64,000 bases of DNA from Rhodothermales bacterium (GTDB lineage Bacteria; Bacteroidota; Rhodothermia; Rhodothermales; JANQRZ01): NCBI GenBank assembly GCA_028284265.1, contig JANQRZ010000015.1:1-64000 (forward strand). Reading direction: 5' to 3'. The notes beneath the pieces are model-generated. The model made no database searches. It saw nothing but the letters and a program-made list of their open reading frames with translations, and had not been told where the DNA came from. Below are positions 13,834-22,294 of this stretch, piece after piece (positions within the stretch are counted from its first letter, which is position 1; each line of letters opens with the position of its first letter). The translations under genes were made by a program, and so were the position numbers.

Positions 13834-13853
13834 TATGCTAATTTTTTAGCATA
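13834..13853. promoter_or_regulatory. Palindromic operator upstream of the blaI promoter
   Basis: TATGCTAA, four bases, TTAGCATA: perfect 8-bp arms just upstream of the -35 box. With the related site at 13891-13910 it brackets the promoter, a typical layout for a dimeric BlaI/MecI repressor. Confidence 0.55.
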
Positions 13854-13858
13854 AGTCC

Positions 13859-13888
13859 TTGACACGGTGAATTCAGCCCTCTACTTTG
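13859..13888 (+). promoter_or_regulatory. Predicted promoter of the blaI-M56 operon
   Basis: TTGACA at 13859-13864 and TACTTTG at 13882-13888, with 20 bases after TTG. Geometry is identical to the cmk and pnt promoters in this window. Confidence 0.55.
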
Positions 13889-13890
13889 GT

Positions 13891-13910
13891 CGTGTTAAAA
13901 ATTTAGCACA
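13891..13910. promoter_or_regulatory. Second BlaI-like operator
   Basis: CGTGTTAA, four bases, TTAGCACA: same spacing and right arm as the perfect palindrome at 13834, with two mismatches between arms. It lies just past the -7 element, about where transcription would begin. Confidence 0.5.
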
Positions 13911-13965
13911 GGGTGTAACTCTGCGTTTCGTGCGCCCGTAGCGCCTCCCAACCCATCAGAGCACT

Positions 13966-14346
13966 ATGTCTGCTTCTACTCTCAGCCGCCGCGAGCGGCA
14001 AATCATGGACGTCGTCTACCAACACGGCGAAGCGACTGCCGCCGAGGTGATGGACGGTCTCGCCGACCCGCCGAGCTACTCCGCCGTCCGCGCCCTGCTC
14101 CGCATCCTCGAAGAAAAAGGGCACCTCGCACACACGCAAGACGGGCCGCGCTACGTCTATCACCCAACGGTCGCGCCGGAGAAAGCGCGTCGCTCGGCGC
14201 TGCGCCACGTCGTCCGCACCTTCTTCGACGACTCGGCTGGTCGGGCCGTCGCTGCACTGCTCACCGCAGAGGGCAAGAACCTGTCGGGCGATGAACTGGA
14301 TCGTCTCGCATCACTCATTGAGAAAGCCAGAAAGGAGGGCCGGTAG
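13966..14346 (+). CDS. BlaI/MecI/CopY family transcriptional repressor
   Basis: A 126-residue winged-helix protein: LSRRERQIMDVVYQHGEATAAEVMDGLADPPSYSAVRALLRILEEKGHLAHTQDGPRYVYHPTVAPEKAR is the BlaI/MecI DNA-binding domain, followed by a short C-terminal dimerisation helix. Family members bind operators as dimers and are cleaved or released when the partner M56 membrane protease senses a signal. The M56 gene begins one base after this stop codon, so the two are translationally linked. No beta-lactamase gene is adjacent, so the signal need not be an antibiotic. Confidence 0.9.
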   Translation: MSASTLSRRERQIMDVVYQHGEATAAEVMDGLADPPSYSAVRALLRILEEKGHLAHTQDGPRYVYHPTVAPEKARRSALRHVVRTFFDDSAGRAVAALLTAEGKNLSGDELDRLASLIEKARKEGR

Positions 14347-14347
14347 T

Positions 14348-17047
14348 ATGAACCTCGTTACACACCTCGGCCCCTCAGACTGGGCTGCTTTGCTTCTCGC
14401 CGTTGCCCTCAAAGGCACACTCATTTTCCTCGCGGCCTTCTTCATTGTTGGACTCTTGCGCCGTGCGTCGGCGGCGACGCGGCACGCGGTCTGGACGCTT
14501 GCTCTCGCGGCGGCTCTCATTCTGCCTGTGCTCTTTCTCGTGCTGCCGGGCTGGCAGGTGCCGGTCCTGCCTGCTCCGCCGGTGGTGACTTTCCATGAAC
14601 CGACACCGCCTTCGCCGCCTGTCGCTCCGGCTGCGCCCCGTGCGCCGTTGGCGCGCATGGCTCCATTGGCTTCGCCGCCCACGCCACCATCGCCGCCGAG
14701 TGCGCCACGGGTTCTGGTTAGCCCGAAGCCGGAGCGCCCAATCCAGAGAGACGCCGACGTGGAGGTGCGTTCGGACGTACAGGTTCATGTGCTCCGTGAC
14801 CACGTCCACTCTCGTTCCGTGATCATCGAGCGCCGCGAGGCCGTGGTACCCGGTGGAGCAGTGGCCGGACTGCCGACGCTGCTCAGTTCCTCGTCGCCGA
14901 TGCCGGTCAACGACTGGCGCTCGTGGTTGCTGCTGGTCTGGATCGCTGGGACCGTGATCGTCGCTGCGCGGTGGTTCTTTGCGATGCTGGGTGCGTGGCG
15001 GCTCGTGCAGCGTGCCGAGCCGGTCTACGATTTAGAATGGCTCGAACTGAAAGAGCGAATCGCGTTCGGCCTAGACTTGAATCGCCCGGTTCGCCTGCTT
15101 CGCAGCGACCGCATCACCGTGCCTGTTGCATGTGGAATCAGCACGCCCGTCGTGCTTCTGCCTGCCGATGCCGACGAGTGGTCCGAGGATCGTCGTGAGG
15201 TCGTCCTGACACACGAGATGGCGCACATCCTGCGGCGCGATTGCCTCACGCAACTCATTGCCCAAGCTGCGCTCGTGGTCCACTGGTTTAATCCGCTCGC
15301 CTGGGCGGCTCATCGCCGGTTCCTGCTCGAGCGCGAGCACGCCTGCGACGACTATGTCATCAACAACGGCGCTCGCGCCTCTGACTACGCCGATCACCTT
15401 ATGAACATCGCCCGCCGCTTCCGCCGCGACTCGCTCTCTCTTTCTGCGACCGCTCCGATGGCTCGTCGTTCCAACCTCGAAGGCCGCATCCTCTCGATTC
15501 TGGACACCGAGCAGAACCGGAGTGCCACAAGCCGAGGGCGACTCGTTGGTTTCAGTGTGCTCGCGCTCGCGCTCGTGCTTCCCCTAGCAGCGTTCCATCC
15601 GGTCGAAGCCGAGCCGGACGAGCACATCGTTCGCCTCGCGCCTGTCGTAGTCAAGGCCGAGCCATTGCCCGTATCGCAGCCCGAGTTGCTGATGATTACC
15701 AGTTTGAACGGTGACGATACGTTCACTTGGGAAGGCCGCGTTTCCTCGGGGGACTTCGTCGAGGTTCACGGGATCAACGGCTCGATCCGCGCCCGCACGG
15801 GTTCGGGCGACCGGGTTCGCGTCGAGGCTGAGAAGAAGTCCGACCGGGGCCGCGAGGACGATGTGGAGATCGTCGTTAATGAGTTCGCCAACGGCGTCGT
15901 CATCTGCACGGTGTATCCGGGGCAAAGTCGGGAGTGCGAGCCGGGGCAGGGGGCCGAGGGCAACATCCGCGATAACGACGTGAACGTACAGTTCGACATC
16001 GAGCTACCGGAAAACGTCCGGTTCGTGGGCCGCACGGTCAATGGGAGCATCAAGACCGAAACGCTCGGGTCCGATGTGGACATCCGCACCGTCAACGGCA
16101 GCGTCGAGACCGCTTCGCGCCGGGGCGACGTGACGGCGAAAACGGTCAACGGCAGCGTCAAGGCCGAGGCTGCCGGGATCGTCCGCGCCGGGACCGTCAA
16201 TGGCAGCATCAAGGCCCGGATGGGCCGCGCCAACTGGGACGGCACGCTCGACTTTTCGACCACCAACGGCAGCATCACCCTCGAACTCCCCGGCGATCTA
16301 AGCACCGAAGTTCACGCCGAGGCTGGGACCGGCAGCATCAAGTCGGACTTCCCGCTAGATGTACGCCGCGATGGCTACACGGGCGCTTCGGCCAAGGGGC
16401 GGATTGGTTCTGGCGGTCGGGACCTGACGCTCGAAGTGCTCAATGGCAGCATCAAGCTTCGCCGCGCCGGAGCCTTCGGGACGAGCATCGGCATGAACCG
16501 CACGGAACGCGATGAGCGTCGGGCCGAGGAGCGGGAACGTTGGGCCGAGGAACGCCAGCGCCGAGCGGAAGCGCAGCATCGCCGGGTCGAAGAACGCTAC
16601 CACCACCTCGCCACGCAGGCGCTCGCCGACATCGGCCCCGAGATGGAGCGAGCGATGGAGGAAGCAGCGCGAGCGCTGGAAGCCGTTGATTTTGAGGGCG
16701 AGATCGCATCGGCTCTCGCCAGCGTGGACTGGAGCGATATGCAGCGCGATATCGAACGCGCGCTGGAGGATGTAGAAGTGAACATCGACTGGAACTCGGA
16801 GGCAGAGTGGGACGAGGCATGGGAAGATGCCGAGGAAGACCTAGTCGATGCGCTCGACGACATCCGCGATGAACTCGCTGACCTCGAAGAAGAGCTTGCT
16901 GAGGGGGACCTCCAGGGCGTGACCGAGCGCCAGTTGCGCGAGGCCAAGGCCGCTCTGCGCCAAGCCGAGCGCGACTTGGAGCGAGGCCTTCGTGACGCGC
17001 GCCACCATCGTCATGCTCTTGATGACGATTGCGAGGATGATCAATAG
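14348..17047 (+). CDS. M56 (BlaR1/MecR1-like) metalloprotease fused to NGS-repeat and coiled-coil domains
   Basis: 899 residues from the ATG at 14348. N-terminal transmembrane helices (ALKGTLIFLAAFFIVGLL, HAVWTLALAAALILPVLFLVLPGW) are followed by a Pro-rich loop, another helix (SWLLLVWIAGTVIVAARWFF), and the zinc-protease motif HEMAH at residues 289-293 with the downstream REHACDDYV. A last helix (LVGFSVLALALVLPLA) precedes a probably periplasmic beta-rich region with eight NGSI/NGSV/TGSI repeats (about residues 460-715), resembling DUF4097-type beta-helix domains, then a highly charged coiled coil of about 180 residues ending HHRHALDDDCEDDQ. Classical BlaR1 has a penicillin-binding domain there instead. 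It presumably senses envelope state and inactivates the BlaI partner. Confidence 0.85.
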   Translation: MNLVTHLGPSDWAALLLAVALKGTLIFLAAFFIVGLLRRASAATRHAVWTLALAAALILPVLFLVLPGWQVPVLPAPPVVTFHEPTPPSPPVAPAAPRAPLARMAPLASPPTPPSPPSAPRVLVSPKPERPIQRDADVEVRSDVQVHVLRDHVHSRSVIIERREAVVPGGAVAGLPTLLSSSSPMPVNDWRSWLLLVWIAGTVIVAARWFFAMLGAWRLVQRAEPVYDLEWLELKERIAFGLDLNRPVRLLRSDRITVPVACGISTPVVLLPADADEWSEDRREVVLTHEMAHILRRDCLTQLIAQAALVVHWFNPLAWAAHRRFLLEREHACDDYVINNGARASDYADHLMNIARRFRRDSLSLSATAPMARRSNLEGRILSILDTEQNRSATSRGRLVGFSVLALALVLPLAAFHPVEAEPDEHIVRLAPVVVKAEPLPVSQPELLMITSLNGDDTFTWEGRVSSGDFVEVHGINGSIRARTGSGDRVRVEAEKKSDRGREDDVEIVVNEFANGVVICTVYPGQSRECEPGQGAEGNIRDNDVNVQFDIELPENVRFVGRTVNGSIKTETLGSDVDIRTVNGSVETASRRGDVTAKTVNGSVKAEAAGIVRAGTVNGSIKARMGRANWDGTLDFSTTNGSITLELPGDLSTEVHAEAGTGSIKSDFPLDVRRDGYTGASAKGRIGSGGRDLTLEVLNGSIKLRRAGAFGTSIGMNRTERDERRAEERERWAEERQRRAEAQHRRVEERYHHLATQALADIGPEMERAMEEAARALEAVDFEGEIASALASVDWSDMQRDIERALEDVEVNIDWNSEAEWDEAWEDAEEDLVDALDDIRDELADLEEELAEGDLQGVTERQLREAKAALRQAERDLERGLRDARHHRHALDDDCEDDQ

Positions 17048-17150: not shown

Positions 17151-19796
17151 ATGACGTTGATTCTGACCTTCGCCGCTTTCTTTCTGACCGTCGGTACGGC
17201 GCTCCAAGATGACGATGCGCCGCCGAGCGTCCGCGCCGTCCGCGTGGAGGCGGCGGCCAAACCCACACTTGACGGTCGGCTTGACGAGGCGGCGTGGGCC
17301 GGGGCCGAAGTAGCGACTGGGTTCAAGCAGTTGCGACCGAACGCCGGGGAGCCTGCCACGCAGCGCACCGAGGCCTTCGTCCTCTACGACGAAGACGCAC
17401 TGTGGGTCGGCTTCCGATGTCACGATACCAACCCCGATGAGGTCATCGCGCAACTCGCCCGGCGGGACGACTGGAATATCAGCGACAAGGTCTTTGTCTC
17501 TCTCGATTCCTACGGCGATGGGCGGACGGCTTTCGGGTTCGGCGTCAACGCGGCGGGTGTGAAGTACGACATCCTCACCTACAACGACAACAACGAGGAC
17601 ATGAGTTGGGATGCCGTATGGGACGTGGCAGTCGCCCGCACCGATGACGGCTGGACCGCCGAGTTTCGCATCCCGTTCTCCCAGCTTCGCTATCAGACCG
17701 GTGCAGCCGCTAGGACGTGGGGTGTGCAGTTCCAGCGCGACATCGCTCGGACGGACGAAAAAACGTTCTGGGCACCCATCCTGCCAGAGGTCGATGGGTT
17801 CGTCTCGCGCTTTGGCACGCTCGAAGGACTCTCCGGCTTGTCTTCGCCGCGCCGCCTTGAAGTCCAGCCCTACCTCGCCAGCCGCCTCACGCGCGAGCCG
17901 GGTGATGCCGACAACCCGTTCTACAGCGAAAATGATTTCATCGGTTCGGTTGGGGCGGACGTCAAGTATGGCCTCACCAGCAACCTCACGCTGTCTGCCA
18001 CCATCAACCCGGACTTCGGACAGGTGGAGGCGGACCCGGCGGTGGTCAACTTGTCTCAGTTTGAGGTCTTCTTTCAGGAGCGTCGCCCGTTCTTTGTCGA
18101 GGGTGTGGATGTGTTCCAGTTTGGGCGCACGCGGGCCTTCAACGTGAACTTCCGTCCGACGTTTTTCTACTCGCGCCGGATCGGGCGACGCCCGCAGCGT
18201 GGCCTGAGCGGGGATGAATTTGTTTACACCGACTCGCCGGACCAGACAACGATTGCAACCGCTGCGAAGGTGAGTGGCAAAGTCGGCGACTGGTCCATCG
18301 GTGTGCTCGACGCGGTCACGATGGAAGAGCAGGCGCAGTATCTCGACCCAGACGGGCAGCGGCTCGAAACGCCCGTCGAGCCGCTGACGAACTATGCGGT
18401 CGGGCGTGTCAAGCGCGACTTTCGCGAGGGGCAAACCGTCATCGGCGGTCTGTTCACCGCGACCAACCGGAGTCAGAGCGAGCCGCTCTTCGCGGACATC
18501 ACGCCGGATAATGCCTACGTCGGTGGCCTCGACTTCGAGCACGCTTGGGGTAACCGCGCGTGGACCGTCAGTGGGGTTGTCGCTGGGAGTATCGTCAATG
18601 GTTCCGAAGGGGTGATTGATGATCTCCAGCGTGCGCCGCAACGCTACCTCCAGCGTCCCGATGCCAATCACCTCAGCATCGATGAGGGGGCGACGAACCT
18701 GAGCGGCGTCTATGGTGAGTTCTCCGTTGCCAAGACCAGCGGCAAACTCATCGGCTCGCTCACGGCGAACCACGTCAGTCCGGGCTTCGACGTGAACGAC
18801 CTTGGCTTCCAGTTCCGCTCCGATGTCTATTCGCACTCCGGCATCGTGATCTACAACGAGAACGACCCCGGCTCGGACTTGCTACGGCGCTGGGGCGGTA
18901 ACGTCAACTGGAACGTGGCCCTCAACGGTGACGGGCAGACGATCAACCGGCGACTCAACTTCAACTCGAACGTTCAGTTCGCGAACCTCTGGGGAGCCGG
19001 TCTCTACGTCGGCGGCAACATCGGCGAGACCTATAACGACCGCCTCACGCGCGGAGGCCCCGTTGCCACGAGGCCAGCCGACATCAGCACGAACCCGTGG
19101 TTTTATACCGACAGTCGGAAGGCCGTCTCTGCCGAGGCCTATTCGTTCCTGCGCACAGAGTTCGTTGACAACCCCGAGTATGACCTCAGCCTCGGTGTGG
19201 ACCTAAGCATTCGCCCCAGTTCCTCCCTTGAGTTCACCGTTAGTCCTGACTTCTCGACCGAGTTCGACACAGACCAGTACCTGACGGCGGTAGATGATGA
19301 GGCGGCCGAGGCGACATTCGGTACGCGCTACGTGTTCGGCGACATCGAGCAAACCTCATTCTCGCTCGGCCTCCGCGCTAACTGGACCTTCACGCCCGAT
19401 CTCACGCTCCAACTCTTTGCCCGGCCTTTCATTACAGCGGGACGCTACTCGGGCTTCAAGCAACTCAGCGAACCCGGCACCTACGACTTCGATGTCTATG
19501 GCCGCGATACGGGCACGCTCATTGAGCGCGAGGACGAGTTTGAGGTCATCCCCGGCGACGGAGGCGAGGTATTCTCGTTCGACAAGCCGGACTTCAACTT
19601 CCGGTCGCTGCGTGGCAGCGCCGTCGTGCGTTGGGAGTACCGCCCCGGCTCAGCGATCTTCTTCGTCTGGCAGCAGCAGCGCGATGGCTTTGAGCCATTC
19701 GGCGACTTTGATCTCGACCGCGACTTTGGGGCCATCTTCCGCGAGGATGTGCAGAACATCTTCCTGGTCAAGGCGACGTACTGGCTGGGTATCTAG
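17151..19796 (+). CDS. DUF5916 outer-membrane protein with N-terminal CBM9-like domain
   Basis: An 881-residue exported protein. After a short signal sequence comes a carbohydrate-binding-family-9-like domain (KPTLDGRLDEAAWAGAEVATGFKQ, EAFVLYDEDALWVGFRCHD) at about residues 30-210. The remainder is a DUF5916 region rich in alternating aromatic strands (FFQERRPFFVEGVDVFQFG, FFYSRRIGRRPQRG) and ends in an aromatic strand (FLVKATYWLGI), as for a beta-barrel outer-membrane protein. Function is unknown for the family; ligand binding at the cell surface is a guess. A terminator follows. Confidence 0.8.
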   Translation: MTLILTFAAFFLTVGTALQDDDAPPSVRAVRVEAAAKPTLDGRLDEAAWAGAEVATGFKQLRPNAGEPATQRTEAFVLYDEDALWVGFRCHDTNPDEVIAQLARRDDWNISDKVFVSLDSYGDGRTAFGFGVNAAGVKYDILTYNDNNEDMSWDAVWDVAVARTDDGWTAEFRIPFSQLRYQTGAAARTWGVQFQRDIARTDEKTFWAPILPEVDGFVSRFGTLEGLSGLSSPRRLEVQPYLASRLTREPGDADNPFYSENDFIGSVGADVKYGLTSNLTLSATINPDFGQVEADPAVVNLSQFEVFFQERRPFFVEGVDVFQFGRTRAFNVNFRPTFFYSRRIGRRPQRGLSGDEFVYTDSPDQTTIATAAKVSGKVGDWSIGVLDAVTMEEQAQYLDPDGQRLETPVEPLTNYAVGRVKRDFREGQTVIGGLFTATNRSQSEPLFADITPDNAYVGGLDFEHAWGNRAWTVSGVVAGSIVNGSEGVIDDLQRAPQRYLQRPDANHLSIDEGATNLSGVYGEFSVAKTSGKLIGSLTANHVSPGFDVNDLGFQFRSDVYSHSGIVIYNENDPGSDLLRRWGGNVNWNVALNGDGQTINRRLNFNSNVQFANLWGAGLYVGGNIGETYNDRLTRGGPVATRPADISTNPWFYTDSRKAVSAEAYSFLRTEFVDNPEYDLSLGVDLSIRPSSSLEFTVSPDFSTEFDTDQYLTAVDDEAAEATFGTRYVFGDIEQTSFSLGLRANWTFTPDLTLQLFARPFITAGRYSGFKQLSEPGTYDFDVYGRDTGTLIEREDEFEVIPGDGGEVFSFDKPDFNFRSLRGSAVVRWEYRPGSAIFFVWQQQRDGFEPFGDFDLDRDFGAIFREDVQNIFLVKATYWLGI

Positions 19797-19820: not shown

Positions 19821-19858
19821 AAAGCCGGGGTGACCAACTGGTCGCCCCGGCTTTTAGT
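19821..19858. terminator. Bidirectional terminator between convergent genes
   Basis: AAAGCCGGGG at 19821-19830 pairs with CCCCGGCTTT ending near 19854, with an inner GACC/GGTC extension and T-rich flanks on both strands. It serves the DUF5916 gene on the plus strand and the receiver-phosphatase gene on the minus strand. Confidence 0.85.
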
Positions 19859-19890: not shown

Positions 19891-21054
19891 TCAGGCTGCC
19901 GTCGTAGCCGGTGTGGCAGGCGGTACATCCGCCGACTCCCCGACGGGCTGCCGCTCGAGCCAGAACACTAGAATGTCATCGGAAAAACGAGGCTCGGCGC
20001 TCCGGCGGAGCAGGGTCTTGAGCAAAGCCTGAACGGGCTGGTCGGTGCTGAGGGCCTCGGTTGCCGACGCGGCCACGCCCTTTTCTCCAAACTGCTCACC
20101 GTTCTCAGCTACCTGCTCGATCAGGCCGTCTGTGTAGGTGATGAGCGCACTGCCGGGCGGCAGCTGGAAGCTCCGGTCGGTGTACTCTTCTTGCTTGTCG
20201 AGTCCGAGGATGAGTTCCGAGTGCTCGACGATGCCAGAGCGGTCCGGAGTCACGAAGATGGGGCGGCAGTGTCCGGCGTTCGCGTAGGTAATCGTATTCG
20301 TCTCGGTGTCCCACCGCATGATGAGAAGCGAAGCGAACGTCTCTTCCAGCAACTCGTCGCGGACCAGCATCTCATTGACGCGGTGCATGAGCTTCGCTGG
20401 CGAATCGGTCTGCTCCAGCATCGCATGGATGGTGGAGCGGATATAGGATAGGAACGAGAAAGCGTAGAACTTGGCCTGGAGGCCCTTGCCCATGATGTCG
20501 CCGACCGTGAAGAGGTAGGAGCCGGGGCGCACCTCGGTCCAGTCAAACAAGTCGCCGCCGCCGTCGCCGAATGGCTTGTTGTAGAAGAAGGTGCGATACC
20601 CCGGCACTTGGGGCATCGACTTGGGCAACAGGCGATCCGAGAAGTCACGCCCGATCCGGGCGCTGAGTTGTTGTTGGTGAACTTCGATCCGTTCGAGGAT
20701 GCGCTCGATACGCGTCAGCAGAAACTCGATGTCGAACGGCTTGGTGATGTAATCGTCAACGCCTTCGCCGAGACCCTTGAACCGGCTCGTGTCGTCGGTT
20801 TTGGCGGTGAGGAAGATGAACGGGATCGTCCGCGTGCGCTCGCCCTGCCGGAGGAGGGAGAAGAGCGCAAACCCATCCATCTTGGGCATCATGATGTCTG
20901 AGACGATGAGGTCCGGGATGGACTCCTCGACAAGCACGAGCGCTTCCTCGCCATTCTGGGCGGAGCGCACCTCGTAGACTTTACCGAGGCGGTATTCGAG
21001 GAGACGCCGGAGCGTCTGGTTGTCCTCGACGATTAGGAGGGAGTGTCGAGACAT
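19891..21054 (-). CDS. Response regulator with PP2C-type (RsbU/SpoIIE) phosphatase output
   Basis: 387 residues from the ATG at 21054. Residues 1-120 form a receiver domain (LIVEDNQTLRRLL, phospho-acceptor in LIVSDIMMPKMDGFALF, FLTAKTDD, DDYITKPFD). A short coiled linker leads to a SpoIIE/PP2C phosphatase: GDGGGDLFDW, FTVGDIMGKGLQAKF, ITYANAGHCRPIF, LITYTDGLIEQ, FSDDILVF, with the metal-binding aspartates present. Phosphorylation is expected to switch on dephosphorylation of the STAS protein of the same operon. The start overlaps the end of the HATPase gene by about 20 bases. The C-terminal 20 residues are an Ala/Pro tail. Confidence 0.9.
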   Translation of the reverse strand: MSRHSLLIVEDNQTLRRLLEYRLGKVYEVRSAQNGEEALVLVEESIPDLIVSDIMMPKMDGFALFSLLRQGERTRTIPFIFLTAKTDDTSRFKGLGEGVDDYITKPFDIEFLLTRIERILERIEVHQQQLSARIGRDFSDRLLPKSMPQVPGYRTFFYNKPFGDGGGDLFDWTEVRPGSYLFTVGDIMGKGLQAKFYAFSFLSYIRSTIHAMLEQTDSPAKLMHRVNEMLVRDELLEETFASLLIMRWDTETNTITYANAGHCRPIFVTPDRSGIVEHSELILGLDKQEEYTDRSFQLPPGSALITYTDGLIEQVAENGEQFGEKGVAASATEALSTDQPVQALLKTLLRRSAEPRFSDDILVFWLERQPVGESADVPPATPATTAA

Positions 21055-21560
21055 GGCGTTGGGGTAGCGGAGATCCAAAATTCGAGTCGCTGCCGAGGCT
21101 CACTGGCGGCAGCGGGGAGGGGAAAGTAGCGCAGGTTGTCGGTGCCGTTGAGCATGATTAGCAAACCCCGGCCGCGCTCTGCCATCATCTCATCTGCGAG
21201 CTTGGCGCGTTGCGTGGTGAGCTGTTGCCCGAAGTCGAAACCGTTGGAGTTGTCCTCAATGATGCAGTGGACATCCTGCTCGTCAAGAGCGAGCGTGAGA
21301 TCAATGAGGGGCGTGCGATTCTCAAAGTCCGCATGCTGGACTAGGTTGGCGATCCACTCATGGATTACCAGCTTCATCCGGTGCAGACGGATATCCTCAG
21401 TTGCTAGGGGGAGCGCCGCGTCGTGGCTCCACGCTTCAAGCAGGGGATGTACCTCGGCAATGATGGTGTCGAGGTTACTGAACCGGGACTGCACGCACGT
21501 CATGATAGGGAGCGAGCCGGGTGGTGGACCGGGTAGTAGAGCTGAGGGCGTGTTGCTCAC
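21033..21560 (-). CDS. Anti-sigma-factor-type serine kinase (HATPase_c_2)
   Basis: A 175-residue GHKL ATPase of the RsbW/SpoIIAB group: LVIHEWIANLVQHADF is the N-box (EWIANLVQHA), IIEDNSNGFDF is the G1 box, and RGRGLLIMLNGTDNLRY is the G2/lid region. The GTG start overlaps the TGA of the upstream STAS gene (GTGA), implying translational coupling. Family role: bind a target (often a sigma factor) and phosphorylate the STAS antagonist. The target here is not identified; no sigma-factor gene lies next to it. Confidence 0.85.
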   Translation of the reverse strand: MSNTPSALLPGPPPGSLPIMTCVQSRFSNLDTIIAEVHPLLEAWSHDAALPLATEDIRLHRMKLVIHEWIANLVQHADFENRTPLIDLTLALDEQDVHCIIEDNSNGFDFGQQLTTQRAKLADEMMAERGRGLLIMLNGTDNLRYFPLPAAASEPRQRLEFWISATPTPCLDTPS

Positions 21561-21931
21561 GCGGCACCAGCTCGGCTGCCACTGGCTGTGCGTCCCTGAA
21601 GCTGTTCGTGCGCGGCCTCGACGGTTGGGTACTGGCGGAAGACTTTATACGTTCGTGTAAGTTGCACGACCACTTGCACCGGGCGGCTCACGGCGGCGAA
21701 CACGACCTGACCACCAAGCGGCGTCAACTGCCGGTAGAGCGAGAAAATGGCACCCAATCCGGTGGAGTCCAGAATACCCGTTCCGGAGAAATCGAGAACG
21801 AAATTCCGGGTGCCCTCTTGGATGTGGTCCTGACAGGCCGACTTGAATTCGGCCGCGTTGCGGAAATCGAGTGCCTTTCCGATGCGGACGACGGCGGTGT
21901 CGGGGGCGATGCTCTGGAAGGAAAAGCTCAT
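21557..21931 (-). CDS. STAS-domain anti-anti-sigma factor
   Basis: 124 residues from the ATG at 21931 (MSFSFQSIAPDTAVVRIGKALDFRNAAEF). The phosphorylatable serine sits in the conserved FVLDFSGTGILDSTGLGAIFSLYRQL motif (DSTGLG). It is the first gene of a three-gene partner-switching operon: STAS, HATPase kinase, receiver-PP2C phosphatase. An N-terminal extension of the frame beyond 21931 lacks family similarity and was not used. Confidence 0.88.
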   Translation of the reverse strand: MSFSFQSIAPDTAVVRIGKALDFRNAAEFKSACQDHIQEGTRNFVLDFSGTGILDSTGLGAIFSLYRQLTPLGGQVVFAAVSRPVQVVVQLTRTYKVFRQYPTVEAAHEQLQGRTASGSRAGAA

Positions 21932-22294
21932 GGGGGTTCTGGCAGGTGAAATCAAGGGTAGGGTTCGGACCGGGGGTACGGTGCGCCCGCGTTTGCCGTC
22001 TAATATCGTACCAGACAAGGCGATGGGGTTGGCGAGGCGTTGCGTGCGTGCGACAAAATACAGCGGCAAAGGCGAGGTGCCTGACGCCGTGTGAAGCCTC
22101 CTGTGGCTCCTATGCCTGAAAACGAAGGCATAGTTCCGATGAGGCCGCAGTGACACGAGGGTGCCCAATATGAGGCAACGCGAGGGTATCCTCGTAACAC
22201 GATTCGTTCCTTTTGAAACGTTCGGAAGAGGGCTGCTGGAGGGCTACAGCGTATTTTGTCTTCGCCGCCATTTCTGTGCTCGTGTCCCTTGCTC
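21932..22294. other. Divergent intergenic region with an 8-bp inverted repeat
   Basis: This 363-base stretch separates the STAS operon (minus) and the lpt operon (plus) and must hold both promoters. The only clear structure is CTATGCCT (22110-22117) and its exact complement AGGCATAG (22126-22133) around an 8-base loop, which could be an operator or a small hairpin. TATTTTG at 22252-22258 could be a -7 element for lptC, but no matching TTG is found at the right distance. No coding potential was recognised. Confidence 0.45.

Follow-up and report, generated by a model that had tools for sequence, protein, structure and literature searches.

The blaI–M56–DUF5916 Locus

We analyzed a 64,000-nucleotide stretch of DNA from a Rhodothermales bacterium (contig JANQRZ010000015.1, positions 1 to 64,000), referred to here as the window. 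It contains a gene for an M56 sensor protease, preceded by a BlaI-type repressor gene with two putative operators at its promoter and followed by a gene for a probable outer-membrane protein:

13836–13851, no strand: upstream BlaI-type putative operator, TGCTAATTTTTTAGCA (palindrome; same position in relatives)
13859–13887, +: sigma70-type promoter between both operators, TTGACA (13859–13864), 17 nt, TACTTT (13882–13887) (sequence; TTGAC in most relatives)
13893–13908, no strand: downstream putative operator, TGTTAAAAATTTAGCA, over the expected transcription start, 57 bp from the first (palindrome; relatives)
13914–13941, +: possible, speculative ECF-sigma-like second promoter, TGTAAC-N17-CGTAG, between operator 2 and blaI (leader pattern)
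13966–14346, +: blaI, repressor of the BlaI/MecI family, 126 aa (Penicillinase_R, 6.2e-27; sole copy found in the genome)
14348–17047, +: M56 sensor protease, whole gene, 899 aa (ORF, Pfam, BlaR1 alignment, orthologues)
14393–14545, +: TM1 (residues 16–34) and TM2 (residues 48–66) (hydropathy)
14558–14911, +: proline-rich, fast-diverging TM2–TM3 loop, residues 71–188, expected outside (hydropathy, dN/dS comparison)
14894–15496, +: M56/BlaR1 metallopeptidase domain, residues 183–383, containing TM3 (194–212) (Pfam)
15212–15226, +: zinc motif HEMAH of the M56 domain (alignment with BlaR1 8exs)
15335–15337, +: codon of E330 (alignment with BlaR1 8exs)
15542–15598, +: TM4, residues 399–417, positively charged on the inner side and acidic on the outer, end motif LPLAAFHP (hydropathy, charge bias)
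15719–16471, +: predicted Toastrack (DUF4097) beta-helix domain, residues 458–708, eight NGSI-like turns (Pfam, model, Foldseek)
16472–17044, +: charged helical tail, residues 709–899 (model, block pLDDT ≈45–80; conserved in orthologues)
17151–19796, +: CBM9 + DUF5916 protein, probable outer-membrane beta-barrel, likely third operon gene and output (Pfam, gene order, low-confidence model)
19821–19854, +: strong intrinsic terminator with a 15-pair stem, after DUF5916, end of the putative operon (terminator scan)

The M56 gene is a single open frame of 899 codons. Its start at 14348, 1 nt past the blaI stop, is the one kept in relatives; an upstream in-frame ATG at 14291 also leaves the frame open. 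The original prediction had raised the possibility of a frameshift or misassembly joining two genes near positions 15,600–15,700. This is contradicted by two full-length, collinear orthologues (72% and 63% identity) from other genomes within the genus or family, both of which carry the same repeats and tail and cross this region unbroken. M56, TM4 and Toastrack follow one another in this order in G008, G021 and G011 as well. A frameshift or misassembly in the M56 gene can be considered ruled out in practice from these comparisons.

The Protease Domain and Its Membrane Topology

Pfam places the protein in the M56 family, with a Peptidase_M56 match over residues 183–383 of 120.1 bits against a cut-off of 31 (E = 1.4e-34). 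In a comparison with solved structures, BlaR1 (8exs; 2e-8) aligned with the protease part, and H201, E202, H205 and E242 of BlaR1 correspond in this alignment to H289, E290, H293 and E330. The NCBIfam model blaR1_generic matched over the protease part with 95.4 bits, far below its cut-off of 400. Hydropathy analysis gave transmembrane helices at residues 16–34, 48–66, 194–212 and 399–417, while a borderline fifth peak (256–274) falls within the protease domain. A whole-genome search found only this M56 protein, adjoining the sole BlaI at a distance of 1 nt. These observations support its description as a candidate sensor protease with a dedicated BlaI, the proteolysis of which is predicted. 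Synonymous change exceeded non-synonymous change in every part of the protein; dN/dS was about 0.2 for the Toastrack domain and 0.33–0.39 for the tail, and both are thus under purifying selection.

Charge around TM4 was compared in 106 M56 proteins: the mean was +3.1 over the 20 residues preceding the helix and −0.8 over those following it, and 97 of the 106 showed the bias in the expected direction. Given a cytoplasmic protease, this bias places the C-terminal part outside; from homology and charge bias, we predict that the Toastrack domain and tail lie outside and the zinc protease in the cytoplasm. Lipobox-like TM4 ends were seen in four of the 106 proteins (L011 and L013, LPLAACQ, as well as L125 and L129), the C-terminal parts of which might be freed as lipoproteins.

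The Predicted Extracytoplasmic Part

The eight repeats read, in order, NGSI, NGSI, NGSV, NGSV, NGSI, NGSI, TGSI and NGSI, and seven of them were also recovered as a DNA repeat family. They are followed by a tail of about 190 residues, highly charged and helical by prediction, so that the protein has all the parts originally described. The repeats did not turn out to be a novel stack, however. Pfam matched Toastrack (DUF4097) at residues 585–704, marginally, with 24.1 bits against a cut-off of 22.9 (E = 2.7e-5), and the orthologue in G002 scored 33.2 bits. A model of residues 421–899, built with four aligned relatives, had a mean pLDDT of 73 and showed an all-beta domain at 458–708, where pLDDT was mostly 80–94, followed by helices. 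Its best Foldseek matches in the PDB were 4qrk (E = 5.6e-10, probability 1.00), 3lyc, 3pet, 3ljy, 4opw and 3jx8, most of them entered there as “putative adhesins”; Ravi et al. 2024 (PMC11237479) cite 4QRK and 4OPW as entries with the Toastrack fold. The TM-scores were modest (0.3–0.5, target-normalised), and the Toastrack call therefore stands on the fold match and the Pfam match jointly. By model and profile, the NGS repeat stack is the known Toastrack/DUF4097 fold, a beta-helix. A profile of the C-terminal alignment gave no match to PDB sequences, and the scores for the LiaX and LiaG equivalogs of NCBIfam were 33.0 (cut-off 350) and 34.9 (cut-off 285).

The claim that this part is not penicillin-binding held up. 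Neither a penicillin-binding protein (PBP) nor a beta-lactamase fold occurs among the 50 PDB matches listed by Foldseek for the model, and Pfam found no transpeptidase or beta-lactamase domain in the M56 protein. The penicillin-binding, class-D beta-lactamase-like C-terminus that marks the beta-lactam sensors BlaR1 and MecR1 is absent.

Repressor, Operators and Promoter

BlaI belongs to the BlaI/MecI family by its Penicillinase_R match (94.7 bits, Pfam cut-off 22.6). A 20-row profile of the BlaI family matched MecI (1sd6) at 5.1e-11; phmmer of BlaI alone gave no match among PDB sequences. The MecI cleavage pair N101–F102 aligns with Ala-Leu in BlaI and in most of its 20 relatives, and BlaI thus lacks the Asn-Phe cleavage site of Staphylococcus.

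The upstream operator is embedded in a perfect palindrome, TATGCTAATTTTTTAGCATA, spanning 13834–13853. Two palindromes of the TGCTA-N6-TAGCA type were found in the window, against 0.01 expected. The exact box occurs in only two places in the 3.7-Mb genome, both at the blaI promoter, and two further places differ from it by one base; one single-mismatch operator lies at C19:137730. The intervening TTGACA-17-TACTTT promoter was not listed by an automatic scan, which applies a stricter rule. When two mismatches were allowed, 12 of 16 blaI loci within the order carried two boxes 53–62 bp apart (ten of the 12 with TTGAC between them) and three carried a single box, whereas the region upstream of blaI in the Toastrack-bearing G011 yielded none. 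We also examined 75 contigs from named genomes (Gemmatimonadota, Acidobacteriota, Planctomycetota, KSB1, Truepera and others). Here, 31 of 37 boxes lay 20–600 nt upstream of an M56 gene and 24 of the 75 loci had at least one, while the reversed control pattern had zero matches in 872 kb. The box thus precedes blaI–M56 pairs in several phyla. For BlaI, MecI and CopY, the literature gives TACA/TGTA as the operator (PMC7253601), whereas the palindromes at this blaI promoter are of the TGCTA-N6-TAGCA type and not TACA/TGTA; this branch of BlaI therefore appears to have a code of its own.

The ECF-like pattern GTAAC-N14..18-CGTA was present in 6 of 16 blaI leaders, compared to 0.07 expected by shuffling, and its carriers include five of the six clear M56–Toastrack genomes. 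This suggests, speculatively, a second, stress-sigma input to blaI. The other matches of the pattern in the genome look like chance and were set aside.

DUF5916 and the Extent of the Probable Operon

The DUF5916 gene starts 103 nt after the M56 gene, and the scan recognised no terminator between the two. The gene order in the sequence is consistent with a blaI–M56–DUF5916 operon, and we infer co-transcription, although the 103-nt gap could hold an unrecognised promoter. The model of the DUF5916 protein matches outer-membrane barrels and CBM9; since its confidence is low (mean pLDDT 55), the barrel is only probable. The M56–DUF5916 order also occurs in both close relatives, five genomes of the sister family f12, G011 and five Gemmatimonadota loci. 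Boxes also stand upstream of DUF5916 in G046 (at 73 nt) and, for a gene on an unlinked contig, in G003 (at 59 nt). The mutually related L056 and L068 have a box over the first DUF5916 codons (M-x-A-K-K-I-A), which could also be a coding coincidence. We found no relevant paper on DUF5916 in the library searched.

Some neighboring and related arrangements may be mentioned here. A gene for a MacB/FtsX-like permease in this genome has a one-mismatch box 24 nt upstream (L140:1501-1516), and an exact box lies upstream of such a gene in G030 (L157:1501-1516), making the permease a possible second target of BlaI. At a Gemmatimonadota locus (L104:1-7277), genes for DUF5916, an ECF-sigma-like protein and an anti-sigma-like protein stand in a row with two for exported Toastrack proteins, which gives the Toastrack–DUF5916 pairing beside a sigma factor in place of BlaI–M56. 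Convergent to the operon, at 19891–22168 on the reverse strand, lie a receiver-SpoIIE phosphatase and then two small proteins identified by eye, one kinase-like and one STAS-like. Together they look like a partner-switching module. In G001, too, the phosphatase adjoins the operon.

Exchange of C-Terminal Modules

Relatives within the order differ in what follows TM4: Toastrack and HEAT (G008, G021), Toastrack (G011), HEAT (G030, G022), charged coiled-coil-like stretches (f12) or a KYGVD-type repeat (G010, G031). Among 64 M56 C-termini from named genomes, a sample biased toward the query, HEAT was found in ten, transpeptidase, carboxypeptidase-regulatory and TonB_C domains in five each, and TPR in four. 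The C-termini appear to be exchangeable among relatives, with the penicillin-binding domain in the minority. The original prediction of an envelope signal unlike penicillin stands insofar as the input domain differs and a different signal is likely; its premise of an exceptional architecture does not, since the transpeptidase is itself found in only 5 of the 64 and the other modules are about as common or more so.

In a tree of the protease part, the clade of this genome is sister to f12, and, given the strongly supported branches, the Toastrack label must have been gained or lost at least four times; a single origin of the M56–Toastrack fusion is thus unsupported. Three f12 genomes have a separate exported Toastrack gene between M56 and DUF5916. 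A simple fission (fused here, split in f12) was rejected, as the separate f12 Toastrack has a likely counterpart, L002, elsewhere in this genome. The presence of both fused and separate Toastrack near M56 and DUF5916 indicates that Toastrack and DUF5916 are tied to the switch in more than one way.

A helical repeat of the KYGVD/YIKSLRQAG type, with no Pfam family above cut-off, makes up the C-terminal end in some M56 proteins and, behind a BlaI-type box, occurs as a separate exported-looking protein too (L144:303-1484, L053:4256-6718, L055:2034-4490). At two Acidobacteriota loci (L061:7960-9515, L082:7833-9240), a BlaI-type box precedes a HEAT-repeat protein directly 3′ of the M56 gene. The library searched held nothing relevant on Toastrack with M56 or on HEAT with M56 and BlaI; an earlier description elsewhere is possible.

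Comparison with Known Systems

The locus shares with the staphylococcal BlaR1/MecR1–BlaI/MecI systems (MEROPS M56) the gene pair, a multi-TM zinc protease with aligned HExxH and glutamate, a BlaI-family repressor and two operators at its own promoter. It differs in having Toastrack and a charged tail in place of the class-D beta-lactamase-like sensor, TGCTA-N6-TAGCA in place of the TACA/TGTA operator, a probable outer-membrane DUF5916 protein rather than a beta-lactamase or PBP as the next gene, and other residues at the BlaI cleavage site. LiaF, LiaG, LiaX and the DUF4097 adhesin-like proteins (PMC11237479) have the same domain with the 4qrk/4opw fold behind TM segments, and the family is linked to envelope stress. 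There, the domain is fused to PspC/LiaI-LiaF-TM or coupled to a two-component system, whereas here it is fused to an M56 protease and predicted to be outside the cytoplasm. Other M56 proteins, from this order and from Gemmatimonadota, Acidobacteriota and Planctomycetota, end in a different module (HEAT, TPR, TonB_C or coiled coil). They likewise occur as BlaI–M56 pairs, many with the TM4 end motif and about a third with the operator box; no papers treating them were present in the library searched. The CopY/CopR copper repressors are of a BlaI-like family with two operators around the promoter (PMC7253601). However, CopY is metal-controlled via Cys-X-Cys and binds TACANNTGTA, while BlaI here contains no cysteine and has a protease as its partner.

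Proposed Mechanism and Alternatives

We consider the locus to be a BlaR1-like, autoregulated proteolytic switch with a non-penicillin envelope sensor consisting of Toastrack and tail (probability roughly 0.7). At rest, a BlaI dimer would bind both TGCTA-N6-TAGCA-type operators flanking the −35/−10 elements and repress blaI–M56–DUF5916. The M56 protein is predicted to cross the inner membrane four times, with the protease inside and the Toastrack and tail outside. An envelope change, most likely the Toastrack or tail binding or losing contact at the outer membrane or cell wall, would be the signal, relayed via TM4 to the zinc protease. Envelope damage is the best guess because Toastrack is tied to LiaX/LiaF systems (PMC10269926, PMC11779154). 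The protease would then cleave BlaI near the dimerisation helix, at the A-L position near residue 97, the counterpart of the Asn101–Phe102 site of staphylococcal MecI/BlaI. Cleavage would release the operon, producing more sensor and DUF5916 outer-membrane protein until the envelope recovers. The model for the steps from TM4 signal to BlaI cleavage and operon release is BlaR1/MecR1 (PMC7593790). Several points weigh against this picture: Ala-Leu replaces the staphylococcal Asn-Phe pair in BlaI, G011 yielded no box before blaI, the gap ahead of DUF5916 might conceal a promoter, and Toastrack domains have been argued to be intracellular (PMC11237479).

What the C-terminal part does could be read differently. 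That it is an artefact, two genes fused near 15,600–15,700, has virtually no chance of being correct in view of the collinear full-length orthologues and the recurring domain order noted above. We give scarcely more credence to a diverged penicillin-binding domain, i.e., a beta-lactam sensor in disguise: the BlaI–M56 pair and the sub-threshold blaR1_generic match to the protease part speak in its favor, but the model matches Toastrack structures (4qrk, 3pet, 4opw) rather than any PBP or beta-lactamase among the listed matches, and Pfam finds no transpeptidase. It is possible, though somewhat doubtful, that Toastrack and tail serve as a scaffold or tether, and not as a ligand sensor. They would hold the protease to partners, which might be the cell wall, DUF5916 or a separate Toastrack protein, the signal being lost contact or arriving via the proline-rich TM2–TM3 loop. 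Toastrack domains have been suggested to act as platforms for protein interactions (PMC11237479). In enterococcal LiaX, the drug is bound by the N-terminal part, and the beta-rich C-terminal part inhibits the signalling system (PMC10269926). Relatives swap Toastrack for HEAT, TPR or coiled-coil repeats, typical protein-binding modules. Such a scaffold would refine the proposed switch instead of contradicting it.

Two other readings concern where this part acts. Ravi et al. 2024 (PMC11237479) argued that Toastrack domains are intracellular, and by that general proposal the domain could act directly on BlaI or other cytoplasmic partners. This would require a reversed M56 topology, opposite to the TM4 charge bias in 97 of 106 proteins, and the nearest free-standing Toastrack relatives (L104, L046, L047 and L002 of this genome) begin with signal-peptide-like sequences. 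A cytoplasmic Toastrack is thus very unlikely here, and the predicted topology of the fusion speaks against an intracellular location as a general rule. Alternatively, TM4 could be cleaved like a signal anchor, freeing the Toastrack and tail as a separate exported protein that acts apart from the protease. The signal-peptide-like end motif LPLAAFHPVEA, the lipobox-like motif in 4 of the 106 proteins and the separate exported Toastrack gene of the sister family are consistent with cleavage. Nevertheless, we find it unlikely, as the lipobox is rare, most proteins keep the motif without a cysteine, and BlaR1 signals via an uncut, TM4-linked sensor, with self-cleavage on the protease side (PMC7593790).

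Conclusions

To our knowledge, BlaR1 and MecR1 are known almost only as beta-lactam sensors. The locus and its relatives suggest that the BlaI–M56 switch is a general device that takes different plugged-in sensors. The switch itself was already known; what is new is the variant, with its apparent Toastrack sensor, operator code and DUF5916 link. The operator sequence could be used for computational regulon finding, DUF5916 is a candidate output of the switch, and the fusion provides a test case for whether Toastrack domains can function outside the cytoplasmic membrane, against the recent proposal (PMC11237479). More broadly, and tentatively, at a little under even odds, BlaI–M56 pairs may make up a broad class of proteolytic switches that sense the envelope, largely uncharacterised and spread over several phyla, with a shared operator code (TGCTA-N6-TAGCA) and protease core and a freely exchanged extracytoplasmic sensor. 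The penicillin sensing of BlaR1 and MecR1 would then be a special case, and in this branch Toastrack would monitor the state of the outer membrane and control the DUF5916 barrel.
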